Shown here one piece after another: positions 20,759 through 42,771 of a stretch of DNA of 42,855 nucleotides; the first letter of the stretch is position 1; every line of letters starts with the position of its first letter. The DNA is from an uncultured Bacteroidota bacterium (GTDB lineage Bacteria; Bacteroidota; Bacteroidia; Bacteroidales; FEN-979): positions 1 to 42,855 of the forward strand of contig CALCGJ010000239.1 in NCBI GenBank assembly GCA_937900965.1, given 5' to 3'. A model generated the notes under the pieces. It worked only from the letters and a program-made list of their open reading frames with translations, was not told the DNA's origin and made no database searches. Made by a program: the position numbers and the translations under genes.

Positions 20759-20772
20759 AAATCGGAAATACT

Positions 20773-22230: not shown

Positions 22231-22231
22231 C

Positions 22232-22273: not shown

Positions 22274-22290
22274 AAAACAATATAGATACG

Positions 22291-22920: not shown

Positions 22921-22922
22921 AT

Positions 22923-23834: not shown

Positions 23835-23853
23835 TAATTAAAGATTTTATGAT

Positions 23854-25185
23854 ATGAATCAGAGTGGCGGAGTTGAAGGAAAAGGAAAAATCGGGTTCTG
23901 GATGAGCACCTCCCTGGCAGCAGGGAATATGATAGGATCAGGCGTTTTTTTGTTGCCTGCAGCCCTGGCGTTTTTTGGAGGGATCAGCATATTCGGCTGG
24001 ATTTTTACTGTCGTTGGCACACTGTTTCTTGCCCTGGTTTTTGCAAGACTCAGCAAACTGATCACCAAAGCGGGCGGACCGTATACATATTCACGGGAGG
24101 GTTTTGGGGAATTTACAGGCTTTCTTGTAGCCTGGGGTTATTGGATATCAATCTGGTGTGCCAATGCAGCTATTGCAGTAGCAGGAGTTGGATACCTCTC
24201 CTTTTTCATCCCTGCGCTGAAAGATAATTATTTGCTTTCTGCCAGTGTTGCTATTGCTGCAATCTGGTTTTTCACATACATCAATACGAAAAATATTCAA
24301 CAGGTTGGATTGGTACAGCTCATCACCACCATTCTTAAAATTATACCATTGTTGCTGCTGGGAACCTTTGGATTTTTCTATTTCAACAGTGCCCACTTTA
24401 CACCGTTAAACCTAACTCTTGATTCCAACTTTGATGCTATCACGGCAACAGCTGCATTAACGTTGTGGGCGTTTCTCGGGTTGGAGTCGGCTACCGTTCC
24501 ATCGGATAAGGTAAAGAATCCTACGAAAACAATACCAAGGGCTACCATTGCGGCGATCGTGATTACTGCCCTGCTCTATATTTCAAGTACGGTAGGAGTC
24601 ATGGGAATCATGGCCCCGGCTGAACTGCAGCATTCTGCTGCACCATTTGCAGATGCAGCCCAGATGGTTTGGGGAAACTGGGCCTCACACCTGATTGCAA
24701 TCGGAGCTGTGATTTCATGCTTTGGAGCCCTCAACGGATGGATCCTGCTCCAGGGGCAAATCCCCCTGGCCGCTGCCAGAGACAAGCTCTTCCCCGCCAG
24801 TTTTAACAAGGTGTCAGTCAAAGGAATACCTGTCATTGGGCTTATCATCGGCAGTGTGCTTGCATCATTCCTGGTAACCTTAAACTATACCAGGGGACTG
24901 GTGCAGATGTTTGCATTTATCATTATGCTCTCCACCCTCAGTTGCCTGTTGCCATATCTCTTCTCTTCACTTTCAGAGGTTATGCTCTATCTGAGGAAGA
25001 AGAAAAGCTTTAATAAAACCAGGTTTATTGCCGCAGTATGTATTTCGATACCCGCTTTCCTCTATTCATTATGGGCCATAACCGGACTGGAATATGAAAT
25101 TCTCCTCTGGGGAATTATCCTCTTGTCAGCAGGGTTGCCGATATATGCCTTCGTGAAATTAAAAGCGAGAAAAAAGAGGCTCTAG
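23854..25185 (+). CDS. APC-family amino-acid/amine permease
   Basis: A 443-residue inner-membrane transporter with about 12 membrane segments. It starts with the APC signature GFWMSTSLAAGNMIGSGVF, where the unwound GSG in TM1 contacts the substrate amine/carboxylate. It continues with AGGPYTYSREGFGEFTGFLVAWGYW and the TM6 block WAFLGLESAT, which resemble AdiC/CadB-type transporters. It follows the homocysteine methyltransferase by 19 bp on the same strand, so it is a candidate importer of the methylated amino acid used by the MttB-family enzyme, or of methionine. That substrate assignment is inference from position. Its stop codon shares CTAG with the stop of the convergent T9SS gene. Confidence 0.88.
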   Translation: MNQSGGVEGKGKIGFWMSTSLAAGNMIGSGVFLLPAALAFFGGISIFGWIFTVVGTLFLALVFARLSKLITKAGGPYTYSREGFGEFTGFLVAWGYWISIWCANAAIAVAGVGYLSFFIPALKDNYLLSASVAIAAIWFFTYINTKNIQQVGLVQLITTILKIIPLLLLGTFGFFYFNSAHFTPLNLTLDSNFDAITATAALTLWAFLGLESATVPSDKVKNPTKTIPRATIAAIVITALLYISSTVGVMGIMAPAELQHSAAPFADAAQMVWGNWASHLIAIGAVISCFGALNGWILLQGQIPLAAARDKLFPASFNKVSVKGIPVIGLIIGSVLASFLVTLNYTRGLVQMFAFIIMLSTLSCLLPYLFSSLSEVMLYLRKKKSFNKTRFIAAVCISIPAFLYSLWAITGLEYEILLWGIILLSAGLPIYAFVKLKARKKRL

Positions 25186-27982: not shown

Positions 27983-28687
27983 TTATACAGGTAGTAAAAG
28001 CCATACGATCCCAATCAGGATGGCAATAACTCCTCCTGCAAATGAGATCCATTTCAACAATTTATACCGTTGTGCCGTTTCAAGTTTGTGCGCGATTATT
28101 CCAAGTAACCAGGTGAAGGCAATCATGGTTAGAATGGTTCCCGATCCGAAGGCGGATAAATAAATAACCGGCTTCAGTGTTCCTGGAAGAACCAGTGTGG
28201 GAAGGATAGCAACAAGGTGACTGAATCCGGCCAGCCCGTGAAGCACTCCGATACCAAGGGTTGTCCATACCGTTTGCCTGACTTTGACAGCATGCTCATG
28301 ATCATGCGCTTGCAGATCAGAATGGTCATGCTTATGTACATGAACGACTACATCAGGATCAGTATGTACATGCGGATGGGCGTGTTTTTTAAGCGGAGAT
28401 TTAATATAAATTCTGGCAATGGCCCAACCGCCGATTAAAATTAGCATGAACCCGACAATCCGCTCACTGTTGGCGGAAATGATCTCTACCGGAAAAAATT
28501 CTTTAAAAAGAATGAAGAGTACCCCCAGCAGAAGCGCTCCAATGGTATGTCCAAGACCCCATGAACAACCTATGATCCAAGCCCTTTTCCGGAAATTAAT
28601 GGAGAAAGGAGTGACAGCAGCAAGGTGGTCAGGACCAGTAAGGACATGTGTGGCCCCAGCAAAAAAACCGGTGAGAAAAATCAGCAT
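27983..28687 (-). CDS. Nickel permease, UreH/NicO-like, His-rich loop
   Basis: A 234-residue inner-membrane protein with about six membrane segments. It begins LTGFFAGATHVLTGPDHLAA, the UreH-like pattern whose His and PDH residues are the metal-selective motif of TM1. Between TM3 and TM4 is a very histidine-rich cytosolic loop (about residues 115-147, with HAHPHVH and HVHKHDH). A second motif, GIGVLHGLAGFSHL, follows. Ni/Co permeases of this type are often found beside Ni enzymes. Here it overlaps the hydrogenase protease gene by 7 bp and is the last gene of the hydrogenase operon, so Ni supply to MvhA is the likely task. Cobalt (for the corrinoid system) is possible. Confidence 0.8.
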   Translation of the reverse strand: MLIFLTGFFAGATHVLTGPDHLAAVTPFSINFRKRAWIIGCSWGLGHTIGALLLGVLFILFKEFFPVEIISANSERIVGFMLILIGGWAIARIYIKSPLKKHAHPHVHTDPDVVVHVHKHDHSDLQAHDHEHAVKVRQTVWTTLGIGVLHGLAGFSHLVAILPTLVLPGTLKPVIYLSAFGSGTILTMIAFTWLLGIIAHKLETAQRYKLLKWISFAGGVIAILIGIVWLLLPV

Positions 28688-29184
28688 ATCGTTCGGACCG
28701 GCATTAATTTCTCAAGCATGTGCTGAACCGTGGAGAGTATCTCTGGATAACATTTCTGTATAACCGGAGAGAAGGAGTTACTGAATACTCTGTCCTCCTC
28801 TATTTCTATGGCAATAATTGTGATAGAGGAGGGGATCTTCATGCCTGTTCTTCTCCCTAGTTCAAGGGCCGTAAGGAAATTGATGTCATGAAGGTTCGAC
28901 AAATGAAGGGTTTCCTTAAAATCATCCGGGGTATAACAATAGACTGTACCGGGGTCGTTTTTCAAGGTTCTTATGGCATCGATGATGAAAACAGTATCAA
29001 AATCCTTAATTATTTCCAGCAGTTCAAGACCTCCAAGCGATGCGTTCTGGTAAACGATATGATCAGGGAATTGATTTTTATCCAGATCGTGAATCAATTT
29101 TGGTCCAATACCATCGTCTGTGAGAATTTCATTGCCTATTCCAAGCATTAAAATTGATCCTGAATGAACTGATGTTTCTACCAC
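28681..29184 (-). CDS. Hydrogenase maturation protease (HycI/FrhD family)
   Basis: This endopeptidase removes the C-terminal tail of the [NiFe] large subunit after Ni insertion. About 167 residues: LMLGIGNEILTDDGIGP gives the N-terminal motif with the Ni-contacting Glu (residue 19), then Asp69 (VFIIDAI) and His99 (SNLHDINFL), the classic Glu/Asp/His metal triad. Start choice is uncertain. The open frame extends back into mvhA, the first ATG would cut the opening beta strand, and I favour GTG at 29184 (GTG at 29190 is equally possible). It follows mvhA by 65 bp, matching the 26-residue tail present on MvhA. Confidence 0.85.
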   Translation of the reverse strand: MVETSVHSGSILMLGIGNEILTDDGIGPKLIHDLDKNQFPDHIVYQNASLGGLELLEIIKDFDTVFIIDAIRTLKNDPGTVYCYTPDDFKETLHLSNLHDINFLTALELGRRTGMKIPSSITIIAIEIEEDRVFSNSFSPVIQKCYPEILSTVQHMLEKLMPVRTIC

Positions 29185-29249
29185 AATCACGGGTATTTTT
29201 CCAATGCTTATTTGACAGAAATGAAAAGCCAGGAAAACCTGACTGTTGA

Positions 29250-30713
29250 TTAACCTCTCTTTGTCGACTGCAGAATATTCCCTTCCTGATCCCTGACATT
29301 CAATATCATTCTCATTTGGCCGGGAAGAGAATGTGTGGCACAAGAAAAGCAGGGATCGTATGCACGGAAGGCCATTTCGATCATATTTAAGGTCCCTTCA
29401 TTGACCTCCTCCCCTTTCTTGATCAGCCCCTGTGCTGCTTTTTTTATTGACATGCAGATCGCAGCATTATTATTTGTGGTGCCAACGATCAGGTTAACTT
29501 TCCTGACCATCCCTTTGTCATCTGTCCAGTAATGATGAGTCAGTGTTCCCCTTTGAGCTTCTACCACACCAACACCCTCCCCGACAATTTTTTCAATTGG
29601 TGTGCGCAAATCTGTTCCAATAATGTCAGGGTCCAGAGCAAGTTCAAGGCAATGCTCTGCAGAATAGATTAACTCAATTAACCGGGCCCAATGCATGGCA
29701 AGGGTTGCATGAACCGGCTTCCCTCCCAGTGTTTCATACATAAATTTATATTCCTGCTGGGCAATGGGAGTGGCCATACCATCAGCAGCATTAAGCCTGG
29801 ATAACGGCGTTGCCTGGTAAACGCTTGAATCCTGTCCGTCAATAAAGCCCTTCCAACCAATCTTTTTCAGATACGGAAATTTTAAATAGCTCCATGGCTC
29901 AACCCGTTCCTCAATATAATCAATATATTCATCTCCGCTGTATTTGTACAATTCGTTCCCTGTCGTATCCACAACACGTACTTTCCCATCATAAAAATTC
30001 ACTAAATTGTTTTTATCTACGAGTCCCATTGAATGAAGGACAAGCGAATAGGGGCCGTTGAGAATCAGATCCACATAGTCCTTATTTCCAAGGACAACAT
30101 CCTTGAACAATTGAATGGAAAATTTAGAGAATTCAACAAAACCTTCTGCTTTCTTTACGATATCATCCCGTTGTTCAGGTGTAATTCCTTTTTTAACGCC
30201 ACCGGGAATGTTCATGACTACATGGGTCTGATGACCTCCGATAAGTGCCTGAATTTCCTGGGCAATCCGACGTTGCTTGATCACTTCGGTGCCGATCTCC
30301 AATCCAACTTTGGCGATCACCCCAAGGATATTCCGTTCTGCCGGATCTGCCGTTGGCCCTACTACAAAATCAGGGGCTGCCAGGGCATAAAAATGTGCGA
30401 TATGGCTGTGAACGAAATGCGCCATATAAAAAAGTTCCCTGATTTTTTTTGCGGTTGCTGTAGGTTCGACTCCGAACACAGCATCAACAGCTTTGCCAGA
30501 TGCCATATGGTGACAACCCGGACAAACACCGCAAATCTTTGTCACAATAGAGGGAAGCTCCTCCACGGGTCGGCCTTCGCAAAATTTTTCAAATCCGCGT
30601 AATTCCGGTACCTGAAAGTATGCATTCTCTACCTCTCCGTCCTGATTCACGAAAATATCAATTTTTCCGTGTCCTTCAAGACGGGTAATCGGATCAATGG
30701 TGATAGTTCTCAT
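29250..30713 (-). CDS. mvhA: [NiFe]-hydrogenase large subunit, MvhA-like (group 3)
   Basis: The catalytic large subunit (487 residues) splits or makes H2 at a NiFe(CN)2CO site. The N-terminal opening ITRLEGHGKI is typical of group 3. Metal ligands are Cys61 and Cys64 (KICGVCPGCHHM) and Cys455 and Cys458 (DPCFSCATH). After His461 a 26-residue tail remains, the substrate of the maturation protease encoded next. The gene overlaps mvhG by four bases (ATGA). Together with MvhG, MvhD and HdrA homologs it fits the F420-nonreducing, Hdr-linked group 3c. No membrane anchor is present in this subunit; it should be cytoplasmic and tethered through the Hdr/QmoC-like proteins. Confidence 0.93.
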   Translation of the reverse strand: MRTITIDPITRLEGHGKIDIFVNQDGEVENAYFQVPELRGFEKFCEGRPVEELPSIVTKICGVCPGCHHMASGKAVDAVFGVEPTATAKKIRELFYMAHFVHSHIAHFYALAAPDFVVGPTADPAERNILGVIAKVGLEIGTEVIKQRRIAQEIQALIGGHQTHVVMNIPGGVKKGITPEQRDDIVKKAEGFVEFSKFSIQLFKDVVLGNKDYVDLILNGPYSLVLHSMGLVDKNNLVNFYDGKVRVVDTTGNELYKYSGDEYIDYIEERVEPWSYLKFPYLKKIGWKGFIDGQDSSVYQATPLSRLNAADGMATPIAQQEYKFMYETLGGKPVHATLAMHWARLIELIYSAEHCLELALDPDIIGTDLRTPIEKIVGEGVGVVEAQRGTLTHHYWTDDKGMVRKVNLIVGTTNNNAAICMSIKKAAQGLIKKGEEVNEGTLNMIEMAFRAYDPCFSCATHSLPGQMRMILNVRDQEGNILQSTKRG

Positions 30714-31696
30714 TGTACTTTCCTCCCTAAAATTGAACCGGGCAAGCTAAACCTGTAGAAAAGCCCTGCAGGGTCAACAATAGATTCAATTATTTTATCA
30801 ATTTCTTCAGGGTTGTCGGCATTGATCATCGTGCCGATCGCCGACATCATTTTTGCACCCGGATCCGTTGCTCCGGGAGGAGGACCATAACAGCCCCTGC
30901 ACGGAGAATTGCCCTCCACGCACCTGACACCACATCCCCCCCGGGTAGCAGGCCCCATACAAATGACCCCCTGCTCAAGAAAGCATGTTTCCTTATCGTC
31001 CTGGATCTCCCAGGGCCTGTAAAATCTGTCGATCGTTTTATTTTCCGATTTTGTTCGTTTGCATTCGTCACAATTGGTTTTGTCATTAGCACCCACTACA
31101 GATCCTTTTGGGGGTAGTTGGGCGCCTGACACGATAGCAGTAAAGACTTCGATCAATCGTTCACTTTGAGGAGGACATCCGGGAATGTAGTAATCCACAT
31201 CCACCACCTTGTTAAGGGGGAGAACATCATTAAAAAATTTCGGTAGTTTTAACGTGCCTTCTTCCACGGGGTATTCCGTAACCGGAAATATTCGTTCGGG
31301 ATTTTTTGTGGATTCGGTTTCCACGTAAGCACGTTCGAATACCTCTGATTTCCCGGAAAAATTTGCCAATCCGGGAATTCCACCCATATAAGCACAAGAA
31401 CCATAGGCTACAAGAATCTTGGTTTTCTTACGCAGAAGCTGGGCGATGTGTTGATTTTCACTGTTTCTTACAGCGCCATTGAAAAGCGTTAGATCGATCG
31501 ATTGATCTGGCATTGCTTCCACATCTTTGTATTTAATATCCAGGGCTATCGGCCAGAATACCGGATCTGCCGCTGCAACGATATCAAGCAGCTTCTCATG
31601 TGTGTCAAGTACTGATACACAACACCCGCCACATGCGGATCCCCAGTAAACAGCCAGTTTTAGTTTGGGTTTGAGATTAGTTTGTTCTGATGACAC
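30710..31696 (-). CDS. mvhG: [NiFe]-hydrogenase small subunit, MvhG-like
   Basis: The electron-transferring small subunit (328 residues). Proximal-cluster cysteines are visible at Cys22 and Cys25 (GSACGGC), Cys101 (YGSCAYMGG) and Cys174 (IPGCPP). A cysteine-rich C-terminal half (C209, C212, C238, C246, C255, C259, C266, C269) supplies medial and distal clusters, as in MvhG/FrhG types. There is no Tat signal, so the enzyme is cytoplasmic. The start is GTG at 31696, 3 bp after the mvhD stop; no in-frame ATG exists before the first cluster motif. It overlaps mvhA by four bases, indicating coupled translation of the two subunits. Confidence 0.93.
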   Translation of the reverse strand: MSSEQTNLKPKLKLAVYWGSACGGCCVSVLDTHEKLLDIVAAADPVFWPIALDIKYKDVEAMPDQSIDLTLFNGAVRNSENQHIAQLLRKKTKILVAYGSCAYMGGIPGLANFSGKSEVFERAYVETESTKNPERIFPVTEYPVEEGTLKLPKFFNDVLPLNKVVDVDYYIPGCPPQSERLIEVFTAIVSGAQLPPKGSVVGANDKTNCDECKRTKSENKTIDRFYRPWEIQDDKETCFLEQGVICMGPATRGGCGVRCVEGNSPCRGCYGPPPGATDPGAKMMSAIGTMINADNPEEIDKIIESIVDPAGLFYRFSLPGSILGRKVQ

Positions 31697-31699
31697 TAT

Positions 31700-32134
31700 T
31701 TATACGTTTAAATGTTCTACTTCCAATGAACTTTTTACTTTACTCGGACCCATCGATAACAGGGTTTTTGTCATATCATTCACCAGTTCGGCGAACTGCT
31801 TGCCTTCGCTTGCGCTGATCCACTCCAGCCGTAGGCGGTCTTTTTCAATACCCATTTGCCGGGTGAATTTCTGAAGCAGTTTAAAACGCCTAAGGCATTT
31901 GTAATTTCCTTCCTGATAATGACAGTCACCGGGATGGCAACCACATACCAGGACTCCATCCGCCCCCTGCTGAAAAGCTTTCAGGATGAAGGTCGGTTCT
32001 ATTCTTCCTGAACACATGATGCGGATGATCCGGATGTTCGGAGCATAGTGAATTCTTGAAGTTCCTGCAAGGTCGGCGCCTGTATAGGCACACCAGTTGC
32101 AAAGAAATGCTACGATTTTTGGTCTGAAGTCCAT
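31700..32134 (-). CDS. mvhD: MvhD-like [2Fe-2S] electron-transfer subunit
   Basis: MvhD links the hydrogenase to the HdrA flavoprotein. The 144-residue protein opens KIVAFLCNWCAYTGAD and has Cys12, Cys15, Cys41 (MCSGRI), Cys64/Cys66/Cys71 (LVCGCHPGDCHY) and Cys80, the pattern of the MvhD/FrhD-like [2Fe-2S] family. I chose the ATG at 32134; the longer frame reads back into hdrA. It sits 14 bp after the C-terminal ferredoxin-bearing HdrA, the order found where MvhD bridges that HdrA to MvhAG. In QmoB and some HdrA proteins this domain is fused; here it is separate. Confidence 0.93.
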   Translation of the reverse strand: MDFRPKIVAFLCNWCAYTGADLAGTSRIHYAPNIRIIRIMCSGRIEPTFILKAFQQGADGVLVCGCHPGDCHYQEGNYKCLRRFKLLQKFTRQMGIEKDRLRLEWISASEGKQFAELVNDMTKTLLSMGPSKVKSSLEVEHLNV

Positions 32135-32148
32135 TGATAACTTACTTT

Positions 32149-33870
32149 TTATGACATTGACATGACACCTTCTATTTCTGAAAGAATCTGTAAATCGGTA
32201 AAGTGCTTGCTGATGATAGCACCTGCCGGACAAGCGGAACCGCAGGTTCCACAACCTTTACACAGGATCTCATTGACAATAGAGACTTTGTTGTTTTCAT
32301 CATAGGAGATCGCTTTGTAAGGACAAACACCGATACAGGTCTGACATCCGCAACACAATAATTCATTTACGCTTGCAGTAGTCACTTCAATAGGAACAGA
32401 TCCCTGAGCAATTGCACCAAGGATCCGGGCTGCTGCTGCTCTTGCCTGCGCAACCGAATCAGGAATATCCTTTGGTCCCTGGCAGGTCCCGATAATATAT
32501 ACACCTCCGGTGGTTGTTGCTACAGGGTCAAGCTTTGGATGTTTTTCAATAAAGAACTGGTTCCCGCAAAGACTGACTCCAATGGCCCGAACTACCTGTT
32601 TTACATTCTCCTGTGCCTCCATATTCACCATCAGGATCACCATATCGACAGGAACTTCAATGGACTGACCCGAAAGCAACTCATCCATTTCGATGATCAT
32701 GTTGCAGTTATCTGACCTGTCGGCCTGATTGATGACCGGCAGCTTTTTCTGCTGATCATACATCAGGAACATGATCTGCCTGTGTGTTGTAAGGGCGTAA
32801 AACTCTTCATGGCCTTTCCCATATGCTCTCATATCAGCATATATCTCAAAAATATTTGCCGAAGGTAGCGCGGCACGTACCTGATGGACATATTTCAGGG
32901 CTGCCATGCAACAGACCCGGGAACAATACTCATGGTATTTTTTATTCCTGCTTCCAACACAATGAATGATGGCCACATTCCGGGGTTCTTTTCCGTAAAC
33001 TGTGAGAATTCTTCCGGCAAGGAGTTTCTCCTCGAATTCAAAAGATGTAATCACATCCGGAAATTCCTTGTAATTGTACTCCGAAATGACCTCCGGGTTA
33101 AATGGTTTTAACCCTACGGCAGCAATGATATTCCCGAATTCAAGTTCAACAGGATCACCTCCGTTGACGCTGATAGCCGTTTTGAAATTTCCAATATAGC
33201 CGGTCACTTCACGTATCTCTGTCTCCAGAAATACGCTGATATTGGGATGGTTGTCGACCCGCTGTACAATCGGCCTGATCATCTGCTGTGCGCTGGATAG
33301 ATGAGGGAACGTAAGATCAAACTTTTTTACCTGTCCTCCAAGCTGGTCACTCTTTTCCACCAGGTACACCTGCTTTCCGGCATTTGCGATCTCCAGTGCG
33401 GCTGTCAGTCCTGAAATACCTCCCCCTATGATAAGGGTCGCCGGATTGACATTGACAAACCGTTTTTGAAGCGGTTCATGATACCGCACGCGACGGATTG
33501 CTGCAACGACCAGATCGATGGCTTTGTTGGTGGCTTCTGTCCTGTCGGTGTGAACCCACGAATCCTGCTCCCTGACATTTGCCATCTCAAAAAGGTATGG
33601 GTTTATTCCAGCCTTTTCGCAAGCGGTCCGGAAAGTCAGTTCGTGAATTCGCGGAGAACAGGCTGCCACCACAACCCGGTTAAGGTTATGCAATTTGATG
33701 TCTTTAATGATCAGATCCTGACCCGGATCCGAACACATATATTTATAATTTTTGGCAATTGTAACATTAGGCAAAGCCTTAACTTCATTTGTAACAGCTT
33801 CAACATCAACCATTTTTGAAATGTTGGTGCCGCACCAGCAAACATAGACGCCTATTCTTGGCTCTTCCAT
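32149..33870 (-). CDS. hdrA: HdrA-like flavoprotein with C-terminal ferredoxin domain
   Basis: A 573-residue HdrA homolog, the FAD/FeS core of heterodisulfide-reductase-type complexes. The N-terminus has CWCG (11-14) with Cys46 and Cys71, the N-terminal FeS region of HdrA. The FAD-binding GGGISG lies at 149-154, and HCVGSRNKKYHEYCSRVCC at about 303-321 is a family block. Two [4Fe-4S] motifs close the protein: C506-x2-C509-x2-C512-x3-C516 and C537-x2-C540-x2-C543-x3-C547. Unlike most HdrA it has no inserted ferredoxin, and the usual FPTLDC..C block reads FPHLSSAQQ, so those cysteines are lost. It lies next to MvhD, so it probably receives hydrogenase electrons. Confidence 0.9.
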   Translation of the reverse strand: MEEPRIGVYVCWCGTNISKMVDVEAVTNEVKALPNVTIAKNYKYMCSDPGQDLIIKDIKLHNLNRVVVAACSPRIHELTFRTACEKAGINPYLFEMANVREQDSWVHTDRTEATNKAIDLVVAAIRRVRYHEPLQKRFVNVNPATLIIGGGISGLTAALEIANAGKQVYLVEKSDQLGGQVKKFDLTFPHLSSAQQMIRPIVQRVDNHPNISVFLETEIREVTGYIGNFKTAISVNGGDPVELEFGNIIAAVGLKPFNPEVISEYNYKEFPDVITSFEFEEKLLAGRILTVYGKEPRNVAIIHCVGSRNKKYHEYCSRVCCMAALKYVHQVRAALPSANIFEIYADMRAYGKGHEEFYALTTHRQIMFLMYDQQKKLPVINQADRSDNCNMIIEMDELLSGQSIEVPVDMVILMVNMEAQENVKQVVRAIGVSLCGNQFFIEKHPKLDPVATTTGGVYIIGTCQGPKDIPDSVAQARAAAARILGAIAQGSVPIEVTTASVNELLCCGCQTCIGVCPYKAISYDENNKVSIVNEILCKGCGTCGSACPAGAIISKHFTDLQILSEIEGVMSMS

Positions 33871-33874
33871 AGGG

Positions 33875-35029
33875 TTAGTTTATCGAGTTAATTTTTGTTT
33901 TTCTGGGGACTGCATGTGTTTTAAGATGCTGAAAATAAACGGCAAAAGGCCGGTAAGCGAGGTGAGACCATTTCGAAAAAGGAACTTCGATCAGGATCAT
34001 TGGAACCAAAACAGCCATATGAATAATATAAAAAATATAGGTAGCATAGGGCATTCCGTAGATCCTGAAAATATGAATCAGAATTCCTGTTATTACGGTA
34101 AGTGTCAGCATTACCAGAAAAAGCCAGTCACTTACGTGAGAGAAATAAAACTTCACATCCTTCCTTCTCATTCTTCCTGTAATGGCAACCAGCAATCCGA
34201 AAAGCAACCCAAAGGTGGCATAATACCCGAGTGCACGCTGCAGATGCCAGGGCGGGAGGATCTTTTCGGTCTGAAACCAGGGAAGGAAGACAACCACAAC
34301 AATAAACATGATGGTATACCCCGACATGAGAAACCAATGTGAAAACCAGTATCGTTTGTCATCACATTTCCCAAACTTGGGTTGAACTGAAAAATTGAAA
34401 ACCAGCCGCCAGAACTCCCTTACATGAACCCAAAAAGTAACCTTAGTATGGCCATGTTTCCAGATAATCTTATAATACATTCTCAGAATATTGGAAATGA
34501 GCAAACCGCCAACCACTATAGCCATAGCCCAGTCGAATGCCTCAATGATATGAATGGGGGCAAATGAATTGATCTTAACTCCTCCCTGGGATGTCAGTTC
34601 CGTGGTAAACGAATAGCCCATCGCAGGAAGCCCGATCAGGAACGCGATCACTACGAGGACAGCGATAAGGAGAATGGATCCGATCTCCCAGACTTCTGAT
34701 GTATAGAATTTTTTTGAAAGACCTGTCCAGTCATATATGGAAGTAAGGTATCGTCGCAACGACATCATCAGTTCGCCGGGGTTGGCATCTCTTGGACAAG
34801 TACTGGTGCAATCGCCGCAATAGTAACACAACCATGGTTCAACGCTGGATTCGATTTCATTTTTCAAACCCATCTGCATCAACCTGATTTTTTTTCTTGG
34901 GAAAAGAAATCCCTCTTCCGAAAGGGGACACATGGCAGTGCATGTGCCGCAATGATAACAGGCATTCCAGTCCCCAATGCCAAATTGCATCAGTTGATTA
35001 CGAAGTTCGGGATGAACACGGACACTCAT
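33875..35029 (-). CDS. HdrC-cytochrome b fusion, QmoC-like membrane subunit
   Basis: A 384-residue protein joining an HdrC-type diferredoxin to a membrane cytochrome b-like domain. The clusters are C24-x2-C27-x2-C30-x3-C34 and C68-x2-C71-x2-C74-x3-C78. The rest has about six membrane segments (near 115-135, 165-183, 233-250, 265-283, 300-320, 331-350). Histidines placed for haem b or quinone binding are H160, H231, H298 and H337. Length and order match QmoC of sulfate reducers, which passes electrons between quinone and Hdr-like flavoproteins. It overlaps the 606-residue HdrA by four bases and precedes the second HdrA by 4 bp. A menaquinone-reactive role is inference from the family. Confidence 0.88.
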   Translation of the reverse strand: MSVRVHPELRNQLMQFGIGDWNACYHCGTCTAMCPLSEEGFLFPRKKIRLMQMGLKNEIESSVEPWLCYYCGDCTSTCPRDANPGELMMSLRRYLTSIYDWTGLSKKFYTSEVWEIGSILLIAVLVVIAFLIGLPAMGYSFTTELTSQGGVKINSFAPIHIIEAFDWAMAIVVGGLLISNILRMYYKIIWKHGHTKVTFWVHVREFWRLVFNFSVQPKFGKCDDKRYWFSHWFLMSGYTIMFIVVVVFLPWFQTEKILPPWHLQRALGYYATFGLLFGLLVAITGRMRRKDVKFYFSHVSDWLFLVMLTLTVITGILIHIFRIYGMPYATYIFYIIHMAVLVPMILIEVPFSKWSHLAYRPFAVYFQHLKTHAVPRKTKINSIN

Positions 35030-36846
35030 AAATGTTTCTCCTCTAGTTGGACAAGTGTTAACTTATTAATTCGTTTCTCAATGGTTTCCAGTGGAATTGA
35101 AATAAGATCCTTGTAGATCTTTCCTTTCAGGATGCTTTGAATAGCCCTTGCAGCTGCAGCAGACCCCTGTGCAACAGAGTCGGGGATGTCTTTGGGCCCC
35201 TGGCAGGTTCCGGCGAGATAGATGCCACCACGGCTTGTAGCTGTAGGATCGAGGTTGTAATGCACCTCCTCGAAGAACCCATCTTCCGACCTGGGAATAC
35301 CAAGCATCCTGCTCAGATCCCGGGTCTCTTCCGCTGCTTCCAGGCCGATAGATAGAATGACCATATCTACGGTATTTTCCAGGATCTCCCCTTTCAGGAT
35401 ATCTTCTCCACGCAGGAAAAGCTTCCCATTTCTCTCCTCCACTTTTGCGGTTTTTCCCCTGACAATAGAAACATCTTCTTCAAGAATCCGTTCGTAGAAT
35501 TCTTCATATCCTTTTCCAAAGGAGCGCATGTCGATAAAATATTCATGGATCTCCGCTCCCGGCAGTTTTTCGAGAATTAGATGAGAGAATTTTAAAGAAT
35601 ACATGCAGCAAACCCTCGAACAATATTTGTTGTGATTCTTATCCCTGCTTCCAACGCAATGGATGATCGCAACTTTCTCAGGTTTCTCTGCCTCCTCGGT
35701 AAATATCCAGTTCCCTTTTTTATCCTGTGATCGCAAATGGATGTTTCCTCCGGTTGGTCCGGATGCATTTAACAACCTTTCAAATTCAAGAGAAGTAAGG
35801 ACATTTGGAAGTCTTCCATACCCAAACTGATCCATCTTTTTTGCATCAAACGGCTTGAACCCAGTTGCTACAATAATGTTCCCTACATTGATGGTCACTT
35901 CATGGTCCTGTTCATCAAGGTTGATACAATCAGGAACCGGGCAGACTTTGACACACGCCCGGCATTTTCCGGTTTTCAGGTAGATGCAACTCTCTGCATC
36001 GATCATATATTTATTTGGAACAGCTTGGGGGAAAGGCATATAAATGGCTTTTCTCATGGAGGTGCCATAATCAAACTCACTCGGAGCCTGGGCCGGACAT
36101 TTTTCGGTACATGTTCCACAGCCAATACAGGTTTTAACATTCACCTTCCGGGCTCTCATCAGAATCCTGACAGAGTAATTTCCAGCTTCTCCAGACACCT
36201 CCTGAACCTCACAGTAGGTCATCAGGTTGATGAAAGGATTCTGGTTCACTTCAACCATTTTGGGAGTAAGAATGCAGGCAGCACAATCAAGCGTTGGAAA
36301 AGTCTTGTCGAAGGTGGCCATTTTTCCACCAATCGTACCGGTTTTCTCAACCAGATATACATGGTTATTGCTGTAGGCAATTTCCAATGATGCCTGAATC
36401 CCGGCAATTCCTCCCCCAATAACCAACGTTGCAGGATTAACAGGATTTTCATCAGGAATTGCAACGGTTTCATAGGAGAGGCCGGCAATCAGACAGGCAA
36501 GAACCGATTTCAGGCGATCCATGTCAAATGTGGTTCCGGTATAATAATCATTAAAACTTGCAAGGATAACATTTGCCGGGTCTTTCCCGGCTATAGCCAT
36601 GGCTTTTGAGAAAAGGGTTTTGACCGTTCCGGGCAGAAGTCCGGCCACAATAAGATGATCAATTCCATTGGCTTCGATCTTATCTGTAAGGTTCTGTTCG
36701 TTCCAGATAAAATCGTGATACTTCCATATTCTGGAAACATTTGGAAATGTCATTGCATATCGAATCAGTTCTGCATAATCTATTGGATCAAAATCAGAAA
36801 ATTGTGGATTATAAAAAAAGATGCAGGTTTTAGAAGGGCTTCTCAT
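35026..36846 (-). CDS. hdrA: HdrA-like flavoprotein with inserted ferredoxin domain
   Basis: A second, different HdrA homolog of 606 residues. The N-terminal ~130 residues are divergent and lack the CxCG motif. FAD binding is at GGGIAGI (144-150). The conserved FPTLDCAACILTPKM (Cys188, Cys191) is kept. An inserted ferredoxin region has C240-x2-C243-x2-C246-x3-C250 and a second cysteine set C287, C295, C298, C302, C307. The block HCVGSRDKNHNKYCSRVCC follows at about 396-414. There is no C-terminal ferredoxin. It therefore complements the 573-residue HdrA, which has the opposite arrangement. It is the first gene of the hydrogenase operon, 99 bp after the Crp/Fnr gene on the same strand. Confidence 0.9.
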   Translation of the reverse strand: MRSPSKTCIFFYNPQFSDFDPIDYAELIRYAMTFPNVSRIWKYHDFIWNEQNLTDKIEANGIDHLIVAGLLPGTVKTLFSKAMAIAGKDPANVILASFNDYYTGTTFDMDRLKSVLACLIAGLSYETVAIPDENPVNPATLVIGGGIAGIQASLEIAYSNNHVYLVEKTGTIGGKMATFDKTFPTLDCAACILTPKMVEVNQNPFINLMTYCEVQEVSGEAGNYSVRILMRARKVNVKTCIGCGTCTEKCPAQAPSEFDYGTSMRKAIYMPFPQAVPNKYMIDAESCIYLKTGKCRACVKVCPVPDCINLDEQDHEVTINVGNIIVATGFKPFDAKKMDQFGYGRLPNVLTSLEFERLLNASGPTGGNIHLRSQDKKGNWIFTEEAEKPEKVAIIHCVGSRDKNHNKYCSRVCCMYSLKFSHLILEKLPGAEIHEYFIDMRSFGKGYEEFYERILEEDVSIVRGKTAKVEERNGKLFLRGEDILKGEILENTVDMVILSIGLEAAEETRDLSRMLGIPRSEDGFFEEVHYNLDPTATSRGGIYLAGTCQGPKDIPDSVAQGSAAAARAIQSILKGKIYKDLISIPLETIEKRINKLTLVQLEEKHL

Positions 36847-36945: not shown

Positions 36946-37656
36946 TTAATCGTTAAGGCGTGCCGTTAATTGCAGACGATGAATATCGGTCAGGAAAATT
37001 TTTCTTCCCTTGGTTTGGATTATATTGGTTTCCTTAAACTCAGACAGCAAGCGAATCACTGTTTCTGGTGCGGTTCCAATGATATTTGCAAGATCGGAAC
37101 GGGTAAGATTAATATAGGGCAACGAACAAGCAGGAGCTGTTGAATCGAAGGACCTGTTCAGGAACAACAGCGTTTCTGCCAGCCTTTGCCTGACTGGTTT
37201 ATGGGAGAGAGATACCATCCGGCTTTCGGCCTCCTCAAGCAATTTACTAAGAATGACGATAAGTGATTTAGTGCAGTCAGGGTATTTTAGCATCAATTGA
37301 AAAAAATCAGTTTGTTTGATGAAGCAAACCACCGAATCTTCCAGAGCCGATGCTGATACCGAATAAAGATTCCCGCTTAGAATAGCTTTTAACCCTACAA
37401 ATTCAGAGGGAAAAACAATGCGTGTAATTTGTTCACGACCATCATTTAAATGCTTGAATGTCTTGACTCTCCCTTCCCTCAGACAATATACACCCTGCGG
37501 TTTCTTCCCTTCAGAAAAAATCGTTTGCCCTTTTTTATAGGATTGAACAGACTTACTATGGTTGATGAAAACAAGGTCGGTATTATCCAGTTTATTGAAG
37601 AAGTTTTGGGAACCTGAACGACATTGTTCACAATCCATCTCTTCCGGGATTTTCAT
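36946..37656 (-). CDS. Crp/Fnr family transcriptional regulator
   Basis: A 236-residue cAMP-receptor-like regulator. A cyclic-nucleotide-binding-type beta barrel (about 25-140, with KKGQTIFSEGKKPQGVYCLREGRV split across strands) leads through a dimer helix to a helix-turn-helix near residues 180-215. There TAPETVIRLLSEF has the Glu and Arg that read GA/TC half-sites in CRP and FNR. Cysteines at 9 and 12 (MDCEQC), 59 and 111 could hold an FeS cluster, but the spacing is not that of E. coli FNR. It sits between the hydrogenase operon and the hyp operon, with an FNR-like box upstream, so it probably controls both (inference). Confidence 0.88.
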   Translation of the reverse strand: MKIPEEMDCEQCRSGSQNFFNKLDNTDLVFINHSKSVQSYKKGQTIFSEGKKPQGVYCLREGRVKTFKHLNDGREQITRIVFPSEFVGLKAILSGNLYSVSASALEDSVVCFIKQTDFFQLMLKYPDCTKSLIVILSKLLEEAESRMVSLSHKPVRQRLAETLLFLNRSFDSTAPACSLPYINLTRSDLANIIGTAPETVIRLLSEFKETNIIQTKGRKIFLTDIHRLQLTARLND

Positions 37657-37790: not shown

Positions 37791-40070
37791 ATGGAAATAG
37801 CGTGTAAAATATTTATAAAAGGACTTGTCCAGGGTGTCGGATTCCGTCCGTTCATATTCCGACTGGCTACTGAAACCGGGATTAAAGGGTGGGTAAAGAA
37901 CACCAACGAAGGGGTTGAGATCTTTGCGCAGGCCGAAAACGATGGATTGAATACCTTTATTCATCAGATTAAGCTTGATCATCCTGTTGCAGCGGTAATC
38001 AACGATATCCAATCTGTGCCTTCGACTCCAGCTGAACTAACTGATTTTTCGATTCATGGCAGTGAAAACAGGTCGTTGGAAGTTACCGGAATCGCTCCTG
38101 ATATAGCCGTGTGTGAGGATTGTCTTGCTGATATGGAGGAGCAACCTTCCCGTAAAAGCTATCCCTTCATCAACTGCACCAACTGCGGTCCGCGCTTTTC
38201 AATTATACGGGATCTGCCCTACGACCGGAAGAAAACATCCATGTCGGTTTTCCCGATGTGCGCATCATGCACTAAAGAATATGATGATATCCGGGATCGC
38301 CGTTTCCATGCCCAACCCGTAGCCTGTCTTCATTGCGGCCCCACATATAAACTCCACACAGAGGAAAAAATATACGACGGATCAACCGGTCAGATTCTCC
38401 TTATGGTATCGGATCTCCTGAAAAAAGGGAAAATCATTGCCATGAAAGGTATGGGAGGATATCATATGGCCTGCGACGCCTTCAACGAAAAAGCAGTAAA
38501 AACTCTTCGGGAGAGAAAAAAACGGGACGGGAAGCCATTCGCTGTTATGTTCCGTGATGTTGAGTCCCTGAAGTATTATGCGCATGTCAGTATTTCTGAA
38601 CAACATGCACTACATTCGTGGCGACGCCCGATTGTGATCGTCAAAAAAAGAAGCAGAACAAATCATCCTGAACTTTCTTCGTCAGTCAGCTCCGGATTGA
38701 ATACCATCGGGGCATTTCTTCCGTATATGCCTGTTCACTACCTGCTGTTCCAGGTTTTATCGTTACCGGCAATCGTGCTTACCAGTGGAAATTTAAGCGC
38801 TGATCCAATTGTGAAAGATGATGATGTTGCTATGGAACAGCTGGTTACAATAGCTGATGCAGTCATGTCATACAACCGTGAAATTATTCACAGAACCGAC
38901 GATTCAGTCGTTCGGATAATGAATTCAAAAGAACATCTGATCAGACGTTCGCGCGGGTATGTTCCCACACCCATTCCTGTTTCTCTTAACACCAATGGGA
39001 TCATTGCCTTTGGCGCCGAATTATCATCCTGCTTCGGCATCGGTAAAGGAGAAAATGTGATTCTGAGTCAGTATATCGGAGACCTGAAGACCCTGGATAC
39101 TTATACGTACTATGAAAAAGAGATGACTGATTTTTTACATCTTTTCAGGATGAAGCCCGAATTATTGGTGTGCGATATGCATCCGGGATATTTTTCCACA
39201 AAAAAGGCCACTTCGTTTGACCCTCTTCCCCTGATGCGGGTTCAGCATCACCATGCCCACATTGCATCCTGCATGGCCGAACACGGACTTGATGAACGGG
39301 TTATCGGGGTTGCCTTCGACGGTACCGGACTGGGTTCGGATGGAAAGATCTGGGGAGGAGAATTCCTGGTCTGTGATCTGGCAACATTTCGTCGGGTGCT
39401 CCATTTCGAGTATATCGCGTTACCGGGAGGGGACCGGGCTGTTGAAGAACCATGGCGAACGGCAATAGCATATCTGTACCGTGTTTATGGAAAAGACTTT
39501 CAATCCCTTCCGCTACCCTTTTTAAAGACGCTTGACAACGGCAAGATTTTACCCATTGTGAACATGATAGACGTGGGAATTAATTGCCCGATGGTTTCAA
39601 GTGTGGGAAGGTTATTCGATGCTGTTGCCGCAATCCTCAACCTTTGTCTTGAATCGACCTTCCAGGCTGAGGCCCCGATGCGACTGGAATCCATTGTCGG
39701 GAAGAATTGCAAGGAAAGCTATCCATTCACCATTGGGAAGACGATCAGGGTAGATGAGATGATCAAAGAAATTGTTCAGGATGTGATGCTGGGAACAGGC
39801 ATCTCCTTTATCTCGGCAAAATTTCACAACACAATCCTTTCTGTTATTTTTGAATCGGTAATGCTGACAGCAAAGAAAGAGCAGATAAAGAAAGTGGTTC
39901 TTTCGGGAGGGGTTTTCCAGAATAAATATCTAACTGAAAATATCCAACTGCAATTAAAACAATCGGGGATGAATGCATATTTTCAGGAACAAGTTCCTGC
40001 AAATGATGGAGGAATAGCCCTTGGACAACTAATTGTAGCTGCAAAAAGGAGGACATTAGTATGTGTTTAG
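37791..40070 (+). CDS. hypF: Hydrogenase maturation carbamoyltransferase HypF
   Basis: HypF makes thiocarboxamide from carbamoyl phosphate and passes it to HypE for the CN ligands of the NiFe site. The 759-residue protein has all four domains: acylphosphatase (1-90, with GLVQGVGFRPF), two zinc fingers (about 108-183, with CEDC, CTNCG, CASC, CLHCG), a YrdC-like domain (about 200-375, with AMKGMGGYHMACDA) and a Kae1-like domain (about 400-755, with HHHAHIASCMAEHG, AFDGTGLGSDG and LSGGVFQNKYL). It heads the hyp operon, overlaps hypC by 10 bp and is divergent from the Crp/Fnr gene with an FNR-like box between them. Confidence 0.97.
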   Translation: MEIACKIFIKGLVQGVGFRPFIFRLATETGIKGWVKNTNEGVEIFAQAENDGLNTFIHQIKLDHPVAAVINDIQSVPSTPAELTDFSIHGSENRSLEVTGIAPDIAVCEDCLADMEEQPSRKSYPFINCTNCGPRFSIIRDLPYDRKKTSMSVFPMCASCTKEYDDIRDRRFHAQPVACLHCGPTYKLHTEEKIYDGSTGQILLMVSDLLKKGKIIAMKGMGGYHMACDAFNEKAVKTLRERKKRDGKPFAVMFRDVESLKYYAHVSISEQHALHSWRRPIVIVKKRSRTNHPELSSSVSSGLNTIGAFLPYMPVHYLLFQVLSLPAIVLTSGNLSADPIVKDDDVAMEQLVTIADAVMSYNREIIHRTDDSVVRIMNSKEHLIRRSRGYVPTPIPVSLNTNGIIAFGAELSSCFGIGKGENVILSQYIGDLKTLDTYTYYEKEMTDFLHLFRMKPELLVCDMHPGYFSTKKATSFDPLPLMRVQHHHAHIASCMAEHGLDERVIGVAFDGTGLGSDGKIWGGEFLVCDLATFRRVLHFEYIALPGGDRAVEEPWRTAIAYLYRVYGKDFQSLPLPFLKTLDNGKILPIVNMIDVGINCPMVSSVGRLFDAVAAILNLCLESTFQAEAPMRLESIVGKNCKESYPFTIGKTIRVDEMIKEIVQDVMLGTGISFISAKFHNTILSVIFESVMLTAKKEQIKKVVLSGGVFQNKYLTENIQLQLKQSGMNAYFQEQVPANDGGIALGQLIVAAKRRTLVCV

Positions 40071-40285
40071 GCGTACCGGCACGGGTAATCCATATTGACG
40101 GTTCCGTAGCCACCGTTGCATTGGGGAGTGTTGAATACAAAGCCAGCCTCTTGCTGTTGAACAATGTGAATCCGGGGGATTATGTCCTGCTGCATGCCGG
40201 TTTTGCCATTGAAAAAATCGACCCGGCAGAGGCAGCGGAAACAATCCGTCTCTTCAATGAAATTTCAAACATGTATGAAGAATGA
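40061..40285 (+). CDS. hypC: Hydrogenase assembly chaperone HypC
   Basis: HypC (74 residues) carries the Fe(CN)2CO group with HypD and chaperones the large subunit. It begins with the diagnostic MCLGVPARV, whose Cys2 binds the iron. The fold continues with VNPGDYVLLHAGFAIEKID, as expected. The gene lies inside the hypF end by 10 bp and is preceded by a strong Shine-Dalgarno sequence AAGGAGG (40046-40052), unusual for this genome and useful to fix the start. It overlaps hypD by four bases. Confidence 0.97.
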   Translation: MCLGVPARVIHIDGSVATVALGSVEYKASLLLLNNVNPGDYVLLHAGFAIEKIDPAEAAETIRLFNEISNMYEE

Positions 40286-41376
40286 AGCCAGAAGGTCTCC
40301 GCTATATTGATGAGTACAGGGATTCTGCCCTGGTTCTTCATCTTTCAAACCAAATCAGGAAGGTATCCAAAAAACCCGTAAACCTTATGGAGGTTTGCGG
40401 AGGGCATACAATGGCGATCCATAAAAACGGACTGACAGGTTTTCTGCCCGAAACAATCAACCTCCTTTCCGGGCCCGGATGTCCCGTTTGCGTATCAAGC
40501 CAAACGTTTATTGACCATGCCATTGCGCTGGGAAACCTTCCGGATATGATCCTGACAACATACGGTGATCTTCTCAGGGTCCCGGGTTCCCTATCCTCAC
40601 TGGAAAAAGAGAAGGCCGCAGGATCCGATATCAGGATCGTTTATTCTGTGCTCGATGCACTTGAGATCGCAAAACAAAATCGGAAGAAACAGGTTGTTTT
40701 CATCGGGATAGGCTTTGAAACTACCGCTCCTGCCAGCGCCGCAGCAATAAAGAAGGCTGAAATGGATGGCATCAGGAATTTCTATCTCCTGAGTTCCCAC
40801 AAAGTGATGCCCCCTGCCCTTGAAGCGCTTGCAGCAGGGGATACAAAAATTGACGGGTTCATTGCTCCCGGACATGTCAGTGCAATTACCGGATATGGCA
40901 TTTACCAGAAATTTGCTAAGGTTTACAAACGTGGTGTGGTCATTTCGGGATTTGAGCCGGCCGATATCCTGCAATCGATTTTAATGCTCGTCAAACAGAT
41001 TGAATTGAGCAATTATCATGTTGAAAATGAATATAAACGCATTGTAAAACCAGGTGGTAATCCGAAAGCTCTTGCAATTATGGAAGAGGTGTTCATCCCG
41101 GTTGATGCCGAATGGCGCGGGTTGGGAATAGTACCTGAAAGCGGGCTTGCCATCACCGAAAAGTTTGCGGCGTATGATGCAACACGGAAATTCGATGTGA
41201 AGATTCCGGAGAGCAAACCACCCAGGGGGTGCATCTGCGGGGAGATACTCACCGGAAAAAGCAAACCCTCCGACTGCAGATTATTCGCTTCGGTGTGTAA
41301 TCCGTTAAATCCGGTTGGAGCATGCATGGTCTCTTCCGAGGGAGCCTGTTCGGTTTTTTATAAATACAGGGCATGA
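40282..41376 (+). CDS. hypD: Hydrogenase formation protein HypD
   Basis: HypD is the [4Fe-4S] scaffold on which HypC-bound iron receives CN and CO. The 364-residue protein has the active-site MEVCGGHTMAI (Cys39) and the GPGCPVC block (Cys67, Cys70). The C-terminal cluster ligands fall in RGCICGEIL, SDCRLFA and later GACMVSSEGAC. Length is normal. It overlaps both hypC and hypE by four bases (ATGA), giving translational coupling. It is a cytoplasmic partner of HypC and HypE. Confidence 0.97.
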   Translation: MKPEGLRYIDEYRDSALVLHLSNQIRKVSKKPVNLMEVCGGHTMAIHKNGLTGFLPETINLLSGPGCPVCVSSQTFIDHAIALGNLPDMILTTYGDLLRVPGSLSSLEKEKAAGSDIRIVYSVLDALEIAKQNRKKQVVFIGIGFETTAPASAAAIKKAEMDGIRNFYLLSSHKVMPPALEALAAGDTKIDGFIAPGHVSAITGYGIYQKFAKVYKRGVVISGFEPADILQSILMLVKQIELSNYHVENEYKRIVKPGGNPKALAIMEEVFIPVDAEWRGLGIVPESGLAITEKFAAYDATRKFDVKIPESKPPRGCICGEILTGKSKPSDCRLFASVCNPLNPVGACMVSSEGACSVFYKYRA

Positions 41377-42395: not shown

Positions 42396-42423
42396 AATAC
42401 AGGATCTTTTAAATAATTATGGT

Positions 42424-42771
42424 ATGCATGAATTAAACCTTGCCATGGCCATTGTGGAGATGGCTGAAGAGGAGGCAAAAAAAAACAATGCCGGATCCGT
42501 ACAGCAAATCGAACTTGAAGTTGGTGTTTTATCAGGTGTCGATCCCGATGCACTGGAATTAGCCTTGTCGCTGGCCATGAAGAATACGGCCATTGAACAG
42601 GCATCGGTAACGATGTTGCATACTGAAGGCCAGGGGAGATGCAATGCGTGTGACCATACGTTTACAATGACCGAAGTGTGGACACCCTGCCCTCTTTGTA
42701 ACACGCCTGCCGGAAAGATCCTTCAGGGAACGGAATTAAGACTCTTATCGCTTACTGTGGATGACCTGTGA
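42424..42771 (+). CDS. hypA: Hydrogenase nickel metallochaperone HypA
   Basis: HypA (115 residues) delivers nickel to the large subunit with HypB. The ATG at 42424 gives the invariant start MHE, whose N-terminal amine and His2 bind Ni; an upstream in-frame ATG at 42370 overlaps hypE and would bury this motif. The zinc site is CNACDHTF...CPLCNT (two CxxC pairs near residues 73-93). It lies in the hyp operon between hypE and hypB. Confidence 0.95.
   Translation: MHELNLAMAIVEMAEEEAKKNNAGSVQQIELEVGVLSGVDPDALELALSLAMKNTAIEQASVTMLHTEGQGRCNACDHTFTMTEVWTPCPLCNTPAGKILQGTELRLLSLTVDDL

Follow-up and report, generated by a model that had tools for sequence, protein, structure and literature searches.

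The DNA analysed here is a contig of 42,855 nucleotides (CALCGJ010000239.1, C239), called the window over its full length, from the metagenome-assembled genome (MAG) of an uncultured Bacteroidota bacterium (Bacteroidales, FEN-979; assembly GCA_937900965.1), which comprises 3.79 Mb and is 95.9% complete. On its minus strand the window harbors an operon in the order HdrA1-QmoC-HdrA2-MvhD-MvhG-MvhA-protease, which combines a [NiFe]-hydrogenase with two homologs of the flavoprotein HdrA and a membrane subunit resembling QmoC. A first-pass annotation had described one minus-strand operon of this composition as a hybrid without HdrB in a Bacteroidota background, and the gene models agree, since all genes are intact by open reading frame reading as well as by Pfam and NCBIfam. 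The operon consists of the following genes:

35026–36846, minus strand: HdrA1, flavoprotein of 606 aa with an inserted two-cluster ferredoxin domain and Cys191, which equals Cys197 of HdrA in PDB entry 5odc
33875–35029, minus strand: QmoC-like subunit of 384 aa, an HdrC domain fused to a membrane domain of the cytochrome b kind
32149–33870, minus strand: HdrA2, flavoprotein of 573 aa with N-terminal cluster ligands and a C-terminal two-cluster ferredoxin domain
31700–32134, minus strand: MvhD of about 144 aa, FlpD domain, putative adaptor between hydrogenase and HdrA2
30710–31696, minus strand: MvhG, [NiFe]-hydrogenase small subunit of 328 aa, GTG start
29250–30713, minus strand: MvhA, [NiFe]-hydrogenase large subunit of 487 aa
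28681–29148, minus strand: hydrogenase maturation protease of the HycI/HyaD type (TIGR00072, 92.8 bits, cutoff 47.45)

Neighbouring genes of the operon touch or share four bases, as seen for the end of HdrA1 at 35026 and the start of the QmoC-like gene at 35029, or the end of MvhG at 30710 and the start of MvhA at 30713. For MvhD, the ATG at 32134 is the most likely start, in preference to the listed TTG at 32254, and for the protease the ATG at 29148 was chosen, the listed longer frame reaching 29343. MvhD matches the Pfam family FlpD with 187.9 bits (cutoff 22.3) and MvhD of the PDB (5odc_D) with E 4e-53. The top NCBIfam match of HdrA1 is the model of the HdrA2-type heterodisulfide reductase (545.5 bits), to which HdrA2 scores 557.9 bits; both lie below its cutoff of 1100, a value adjusted to a longer protein with MvhD included. 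The CCG domain of HdrB was matched in none of the operon proteins using Pfam, and a genome-wide CCG search revealed none on the contig.

The hydrogenase belongs to the Mvh group. MvhA contains the motifs ICGVCPGCH and AYDPCFSCATH, and thereby both motifs given for group 3c by Poudel et al. (2018), L1 ICGxCxxxH and L2 AYDPCxxCATH. Past the second motif 26 residues remain, and cleavage of this C-terminus during maturation would be expected. In the PDB, MvhA from the Mvh-Hdr complex of a methanogen is closest (5odc_F, 407 bits), and MvhA, MvhG, MvhD and both HdrA all find their top PDB matches in Mvh or HdrA chains from structures of Mvh-Hdr or Hdr complexes. In a quick tree of 83 MvhA rows (10 of 93 were dropped due to cut contigs), the phylogenetic placement suggested by the first-pass annotation, three Hox-type rows, labeled by size and neighbours, lie beyond a branch with a starred value of 100. 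Matches to MvhA of about 35–42% identity in other families of the order were set aside as Hox-type group 3d by size and neighbours.

The two HdrA paralogs are of special importance. The cysteine census covers 52 complete HdrA1 (6 of 58 were incomplete and dropped) and 56 complete HdrA2 (5 of 61 dropped), with Cys197 numbered via alignment to chain A of 5odc. In HdrA2, the ligands of the N-terminal cluster and all eight cysteines of the C-terminal ferredoxin domain are kept in 56/56 sequences, Cys197 is found in 0/56 and the inserted ferredoxin domain is lacking, all of which also holds for the HdrA2 of the window. In HdrA1, Cys197 and the eight cysteines of the inserted ferredoxin domain are present in 52/52, the C-terminal ferredoxin domain is lacking, also in the window, and the N-terminal domain is without a full set of cluster ligands (C11, C44 and C69 each 0/52, C9 22/52). 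This N-terminal domain is missing entirely in three HdrA1, with no upstream remnant, and is a separate frame in a fourth. The cluster of the thioredoxin-reductase domain is kept in all 108 HdrA, the equivalent of Lys409 in 107 of them (52/52 HdrA1, 55/56 HdrA2), and the glycines Gly144, 146 and 149 at the flavin adenine dinucleotide (FAD) are invariant among 42 HdrA1. Lys409 has been placed near N5 of the bifurcating FAD (PMC10734219).

From this census it follows that the N-terminal cluster site and either ferredoxin domain are present a single time in the pair, while both proteins contribute a thioredoxin-reductase domain and its cluster. A single HdrA holding all domains, as in the homodimer of MvhADG-HdrABC, is not what the operon encodes, the domains being divided over HdrA1 and HdrA2; Lys409, the ligands of the shared cluster and both ferredoxin domains of a bifurcating HdrA are present across the two paralogs together. 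Judged by their ligands, HdrA1 and HdrA2 are complementary halves, which together would supply every element of the Mvh-Hdr bifurcation path. The same complementarity in the tandem HdrA proteins of anaerobic methanotrophic archaea (ANME) was read as heterodimers (Chadwick et al., 2022; PMC9012536).

The QmoC-like subunit matches the QmoC model NF038018 with E 3.8e-55 over model positions 6–359 of 360. Its score of 187.8 bits lies below the equivalog cutoff of 300, and four other QmoC-like copies linked to Mvh score similarly (192.2, 195.5, 162.6 and 160.9 bits), in comparison to 379.6 bits for a true QmoC on contig C12 of the same genome. The HdrC domain displays eight cysteines (Cys24/27/30/34/68/71/74/78) invariant among 45 homologs, and two [4Fe-4S] clusters would be expected. 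Within the membrane domain, which may carry b hemes, His231, His337 and His356 are kept in 45/45 homologs and 5/5 true QmoC, and His298 (43/45) as well as His319 (40/45) set the QmoC-like subunit apart from true QmoC. It is the most variable part of the operon, the identity to the copy of the window falling to 36%.

The arrangement recurs in other genomes. A search of a genome collection with an alignment of 16 MvhA yielded 324 confirmed relatives. The 80 best loci were retained, which hold 81 MvhA copies; 60 copies could be fully classed. The gene order of the window (arrangement A) is found in 38 of the 81 copies, L149 being assigned by hand due to a spurious frame, and the order MvhD-MvhG-MvhA-HdrA1-QmoC-HdrA2 (arrangement B) in 17. 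HdrC-HdrB-HdrA replaces the QmoC set (arrangement C) in five, plus one partial case; nine further copies are partial A or B and 11 are cut by contig ends. The co-occurrence proposed earlier is therefore borne out, with a QmoC arrangement in 55 of the 60 classed copies, HdrB and HdrC instead in 5, and HdrB absent from the vicinity of all 55 A or B copies. The contig starts within MvhA in 4 of the 17 B copies, where MvhD and MvhG are unseen, so that the complete set of six genes is visible in 51 copies; the widest intergenic gap within the operon across the 55 copies is 223 bases. A Crp-like gene lies immediately upstream in 19 of 38 arrangement A copies, and a maturation protease at most two genes downstream in 33 of 38.

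As named in their records, 72 of the 80 loci are from Bacteroidota. Outside this phylum arrangement A is present in one Aminicenantes, one Bdellovibrionales, one 'proteobacterium' and two 'Chlorobiota' MAGs, for which short contigs make contamination possible. Among named relatives in the searched collection, a Bacteroidales MAG comes closest, its MvhA being 94% identical, and a cultured host of the operon is Draconibacterium aestuarii Z1-6 (G120), where the genes sit on a contig of 807 kb. Across the phylum as a whole the arrangement is uncommon: an even draw of 392 genomes contained 11 with MvhA at E <= 1e-180, ten of which, besides that of the window, are 54–64% identical and show the QmoC arrangement in 0/10. 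These ten carry HdrBC (5), a NuoF-like module (3; model run on one) or a membrane DsrK/TmcB-like protein (2; model run on one).

Some of these loci deserve a description of their own. At L266:8322-16569 and L268:1264-9637, MvhDGA-HdrA is accompanied by an HdrC/HdrB-like protein of 400 aa and a membrane DsrK/TmcB-like protein of 661–676 aa (models on L266 only), which would represent another membrane-linked Mvh variant. At L261, L262 and L264, MvhDGA-HdrA lies beside a 610-aa protein (NuoF-like in L262 with 477 bits, where alone the model was run) and small proteins, and Mvh is possibly linked to NADH (reduced nicotinamide adenine dinucleotide, NAD). Response-regulator-like and membrane histidine-kinase-like proteins, their domains read by eye, follow arrangement B at L059:14096-15948, also in L064 and L066 and, by size, in L108, L145 and L153; a two-component control of arrangement B is possible.

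Taken together, we consider it probable that the operon encodes a bifurcating hydrogenase of the H2:menaquinone/ferredoxin type, a variant of the Mvh-Hdr kind. Here, the products would form one membrane-anchored complex, in which MvhAG splits H2 and the electrons, after passing MvhD, enter HdrA2 at its C-terminal ferredoxin domain. The paralogs HdrA2 and HdrA1 would be an obligate heterodimer, Cys191 of HdrA1 completing the N-terminal [4Fe-4S] cluster of HdrA2, and the electrons would be split at the flavin. In one branch, menaquinone would be reached from the cluster of the thioredoxin-reductase domain through the HdrC domain and the b hemes of the QmoC-like subunit; in the other, free ferredoxin would be reduced via the shared cluster and then the ferredoxin domain inserted in HdrA1. 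Overall, this would amount to 2 H2 + Fd(ox) + MQ -> Fd(red, two electrons) + MQH2 (Fd, ferredoxin; MQ, menaquinone; MQH2, menaquinol). That a flavoenzyme can bifurcate with a menaquinone branch is known from EtfABCX (PMC10734219). Using the potentials for H2, ferredoxin and menaquinone from the same paper, the computed bifurcation amounts to about -59 kJ/mol and reaches balance near 0.7 Pa H2 for 1:1 reduced/oxidised pools.

The first-pass annotation had proposed an H2:menaquinone complex that possibly bifurcates. The quinone link stands as the most economical reading, menaquinone being the putative quinone, and the strict complementarity of the HdrA pair argues for bifurcation. The presence of a quinone in the host is suggested by the true QmoC of the same genome and by a NuoN-like fragment found at the end of a sequence stretch.

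Several points weigh against this reading. The gene content leaves the direction of electron flow unfixed. QmoA and QmoB share the complementarity, so the ligand pattern would fit either direction and is no proof of ferredoxin reduction, and confurcation by Qmo is itself a proposal (PMC10553843). The second heme ligands are uncertain, since true QmoC does not retain His298 and His319. In the predicted structure of the QmoC-like subunit (mean predicted local distance difference test, pLDDT, 81.9), VIA-align yields EtfD with Z 10.9 (4.2 Å over 223 residues) and NarI with Z 10.0 (5.1 Å over 178), a fold match that is weak alone, since according to the notes of the aligner Z below about 13 can reflect the common arrangement of helical proteins; residues 2–99 match HdrC with Z 9.7–9.8 (2.8 Å over 95), the next unrelated row having Z 6.4. 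Foldseek with the same structure gave no match at E <= 0.001. Since such Z values are within reach of helical proteins and Foldseek found no match, the quinone link is based mainly on the homology to QmoC. MenA (TIGR00751) has no match in the MAG of the window, in which the futalosine route was not searched. Finally, within the even draw of 392 genomes only that of the window has the close MvhA clade.

The alternative that survives best is the same complex operating in reverse, where menaquinol and reduced ferredoxin are confurcated to H2 as an electron outlet in a syntrophic or fermentative life. H2 consumers can keep H2 as low as about 0.7 Pa, and the balance near this very value implies that the reverse reaction is possible below it. 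RnfB above cutoff was not found in the genome, which may therefore need another outlet for ferredoxin, and a confurcating direction has been proposed for QmoABC (PMC10553843). Against this, standard H2 favours oxidation by the -59 kJ/mol given above, and no feature of the gene content sets the direction; we regard the reversed complex as unlikely, while giving it more weight than any of the readings below.

Less probable still is a plain H2:quinone oxidoreductase, which would send all electrons to the membrane and keep the ferredoxin arm as a relic. Membrane uptake hydrogenases work without bifurcation, and a QmoC-like quinone subunit is indeed present. However, the eight cysteines of the inserted ferredoxin domain and the ligands of the shared cluster are kept throughout the 52 HdrA1 and 56 HdrA2 while other ligands were lost, which makes a relic arm unlikely, since a relic should decay.

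The absence of HdrB, claimed from the window, holds for operon and contig and does not extend to the genome. On contig C82, separate from the Mvh operon, an operon of HdrC, HdrB, HdrA and MvhD is located, together with genes resembling sulfhydrogenase beta and gamma below their cutoffs. A disulfide might therefore be the true high-potential acceptor, with HdrB of C82 joining the complex and QmoC acting as an anchor, in analogy to some methanogens, whose Mvh and Hdr genes are located separately. In line with this, HdrB is found in 17 of 23 genomes with the MvhA clade, that of the window included, and within the Mvh operon itself in G054 and G117. However, C82 has its own HdrC, HdrA and MvhD. 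Furthermore, HdrB occurs in 40 of 43 genomes of the family of the window, in 14 of 17 with the MvhA clade and equally in 26 of 26 without it; being nearly universal with or without Mvh, it is a trait of the family and not a partner of the operon.

A search for CCG families in 13 more genomes covered the six without HdrB so far (G001, G011, G031, G056, G064 and G094) and seven hand-picked from named loci, among which G121 has the HdrBC arrangement. In G056, G094, G120, G122, G124 and G126 it revealed no HdrB, all CCG matches being LutA-like or Etf-linked; this includes the cultured D. aestuarii Z1-6. Etf-linked here means kin of a CCG protein beside Etf genes on C90, and LutA-like is the name we assume for the CCG protein on C286, both contigs of the genome of the window. 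HdrB is present in G123 (Aminicenantes), where it shares 39% identity with the C82 protein. G064 and G125 encode a distantly HdrB-like protein of roughly 350 aa, G011 and G031 CCG proteins similar to the latter in size, and G001, 69% complete, one unclassified CCG protein. The copy of G064, a relative within the Bacteroidales, lies at L258:1928-6859 together with HdrC and a short HdrA (350 aa for the distant HdrB, 344 aa for HdrA), a set which we take to be sHdr-like. An HdrB that is always co-conserved, named at the outset as a refutation, is thus not found, six genomes with the operon containing only other CCG families, and the disulfide reading appears very improbable.

Equally improbable is a role of the operon as an accessory QmoABC, in which the hydrogenase as donor would supply electrons to a Qmo partner, for example adenosine 5'-phosphosulfate (APS) reductase. 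Its subunit logic is that of QmoA/QmoB/QmoC, and C12 of the same genome carries a true QmoC and a QmoB-like gene. However, as given above, the QmoC-like subunit does not reach the QmoC cutoff, and no AprAB was found among the 28 window proteins scanned, the rest of the genome not having been searched for it. True QmoA (3/3) and QmoB (4/4), taken as references from relatives of the window and in one case from beside AprAB, show the same ligand split as HdrA1 and HdrA2; no QmoC above cutoff was present in 97 genomes of the phylum of L157, which were searched for further Qmo references. The inserted ferredoxin domain was rejected as a mark against Qmo, since 3/3 QmoA keep all eight cysteines.

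The HdrA tree comprises 69 rows, hand-picked from 22 of the 80 loci and complemented by Qmo, own-genome and distant rows; it is a quick tree with midpoint root, few Qmo rows and long branches flagged. HdrA1 and HdrA2 each form a clade with a starred value of 100, apart from QmoA and QmoB, which are joined elsewhere at a starred 99. A separate origin of HdrA1/HdrA2 from QmoA/QmoB is likely, though not proven, and the operon probably resembles Qmo plus hydrogenase by convergence. The likeness to Qmo noted earlier thus stands for the whole length of QmoC, while the operon lies outside true QmoABC by score and tree. It would work like a Qmo complex with a hydrogenase added, but is not classed as Qmo.

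In the MvhA tree, HdrBC arrangements are nested in QmoC arrangements at two places; one starred branch of 13 rows comprises seven of arrangement A and six of C. This nesting implies that one hydrogenase exchanged HdrBC for HdrA1 and QmoC, or the reverse. Such a swap of the output on one hydrogenase would support QmoC as the high-potential outlet.

The genome of the window harbors further loci of the HdrA family on C275, C12 and C22, a QmoC-like gene being present in two of them. C12 (L019) encodes QmoABC in this order, with QmoC above cutoff at the 379.6 bits stated above and MvhD fused to QmoB. On C275 (L018:4811-11165) a second Qmo-like operon comprises a small MvhD-like protein, a QmoB-like protein, a QmoC-like protein (190.7 bits, below cutoff) and a 929-aa QmoA-like protein with an insertion of the GltD/NfnB type, with an HdrD-like gene further on; this operon is possibly NAD(P)H-linked. 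On C22 (L017:950-4009) an HdrA-HdrA fusion of 1019 aa, resembling the fused HdrA of ANME, is followed by an MvhD-like gene. In a different genome, G049 (L251:5841-12634), a full QmoABC is immediately adjacent to the genes of AprA (872 bits) and an AprB-like protein, a neighbourhood that suggests APS reductase metabolism.

Compared to known systems, the operon shares the Mvh/HdrA relatives, the HdrC domain and the ligands of the electron path with MvhADG-HdrABC of hydrogenotrophic methanogens (5odc), from which it differs in lacking HdrB, in the fusion of HdrC to a membrane domain and in the division of HdrA into two complementary paralogs. With QmoABC, linked to menaquinol and APS reductase, it has in common two complementary HdrA paralogs, QmoA showing the pattern of HdrA1 and QmoB that of HdrA2, and the HdrC-cytochrome b subunit. 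In contrast to QmoABC, it contains a hydrogenase, MvhD as a separate gene (fused in QmoB of C12) and the additional conserved His298 and His319; its QmoC score is below cutoff and its HdrA paralogs are not orthologous to QmoA/B on the tree.

In Desulfobacterium autotrophicum, mvhA2DG is clustered with hdrA1 and a bifurcation of H2 electrons by MvhADG-HdrA has been proposed; here, the periplasmic hydrogenase HysAB is involved, a disulfide acceptor is proposed, and the passages concerned mention neither QmoC nor a second HdrA (PMC2702500). The tandem HdrA heterodimers of ANME consist of one protein that has the N-terminal domain and no Cys197 and another with Cys197, but their clusters contain FdhAB-like and HdrBC/HdrD parts, and no unit of hydrogenase and QmoC is described in the sections on them (PMC9012536). 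EtfABCX of Thermotoga maritima is likewise membrane-associated and splits electrons between ferredoxin and menaquinone, but uses an Etf-type flavoprotein, NADH as donor and unrelated subunits (PMC10734219). 'Ca. Symbiobacter mobilis' shares a group 3c MvhADG and an HdrA without HdrB/HdrC, but an NADH-binding HdrA is proposed there, and QmoC is not mentioned in the passage in question (PMC4053972).

The first-pass annotation knew of no description of the exact combination. Likewise, the open literature yielded, among the matches listed, no account of MvhADG combined with two HdrA and QmoC, a scope that leaves aside subscription papers including the review of HdrA modules cited in PMC10553843. 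We regard as evenly balanced the wider claim of a membrane-bound bifurcating [NiFe]-hydrogenase with menaquinone instead of a disulfide or NAD as acceptor and an obligate HdrA1/HdrA2 heterodimer separate from QmoA/QmoB; Bacteroidota and a few other lineages would thereby obtain reduced ferredoxin with H2 at pressures as low as about 0.7 Pa. To our knowledge, no bifurcating hydrogenase with a quinone branch has been known, and none was found in the open literature searched.

The operon is flanked by further genes:

36946–37656, minus strand: regulator of the Crp/Fnr family, the first upstream gene on the same strand (Pfam cNMP_binding and HTH_Crp_2)
27983–28687, minus strand: membrane protein with a histidine-rich loop (Pfam DsbD_2 sub-threshold, 24.1 vs. 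24.9 bits)
37791–42771, plus strand: hypF, hypD, hypE and hypA, divergent, for assembly of the [NiFe] cofactor (Pfam HypF, HypD, AIRS and HypA)

The regulator scores 99.7 bits to the Fnr model, under its cutoff of 228, and an anaerobic control of the operon appears likely. From its histidine-rich loop, the membrane protein may be a NicO/UreH-like transporter of nickel. At 20075–25185 on the plus strand the window also contains a corrinoid methyl-transfer cluster with a MetH activation-domain protein, an MttB-family methyltransferase, a corrinoid protein, a homocysteine S-methyltransferase and an amino-acid permease.

If the proposed bifurcating hydrogenase is real, a set of anaerobic Bacteroidota, most of them uncultured, would use the oxidation of H2 to supply both the quinone pool and ferredoxin in one step. 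It would also explain the presence of group 3c hydrogenases in genomes without HdrB, for which a metagenome survey took HdrABC as the partner (Poudel et al., 2018). In addition, it would represent a second, apparently separate, heterodimerisation of HdrA with a QmoC-like subunit, and the question of bifurcation by Qmo would become testable in a system with a simple donor, H2.

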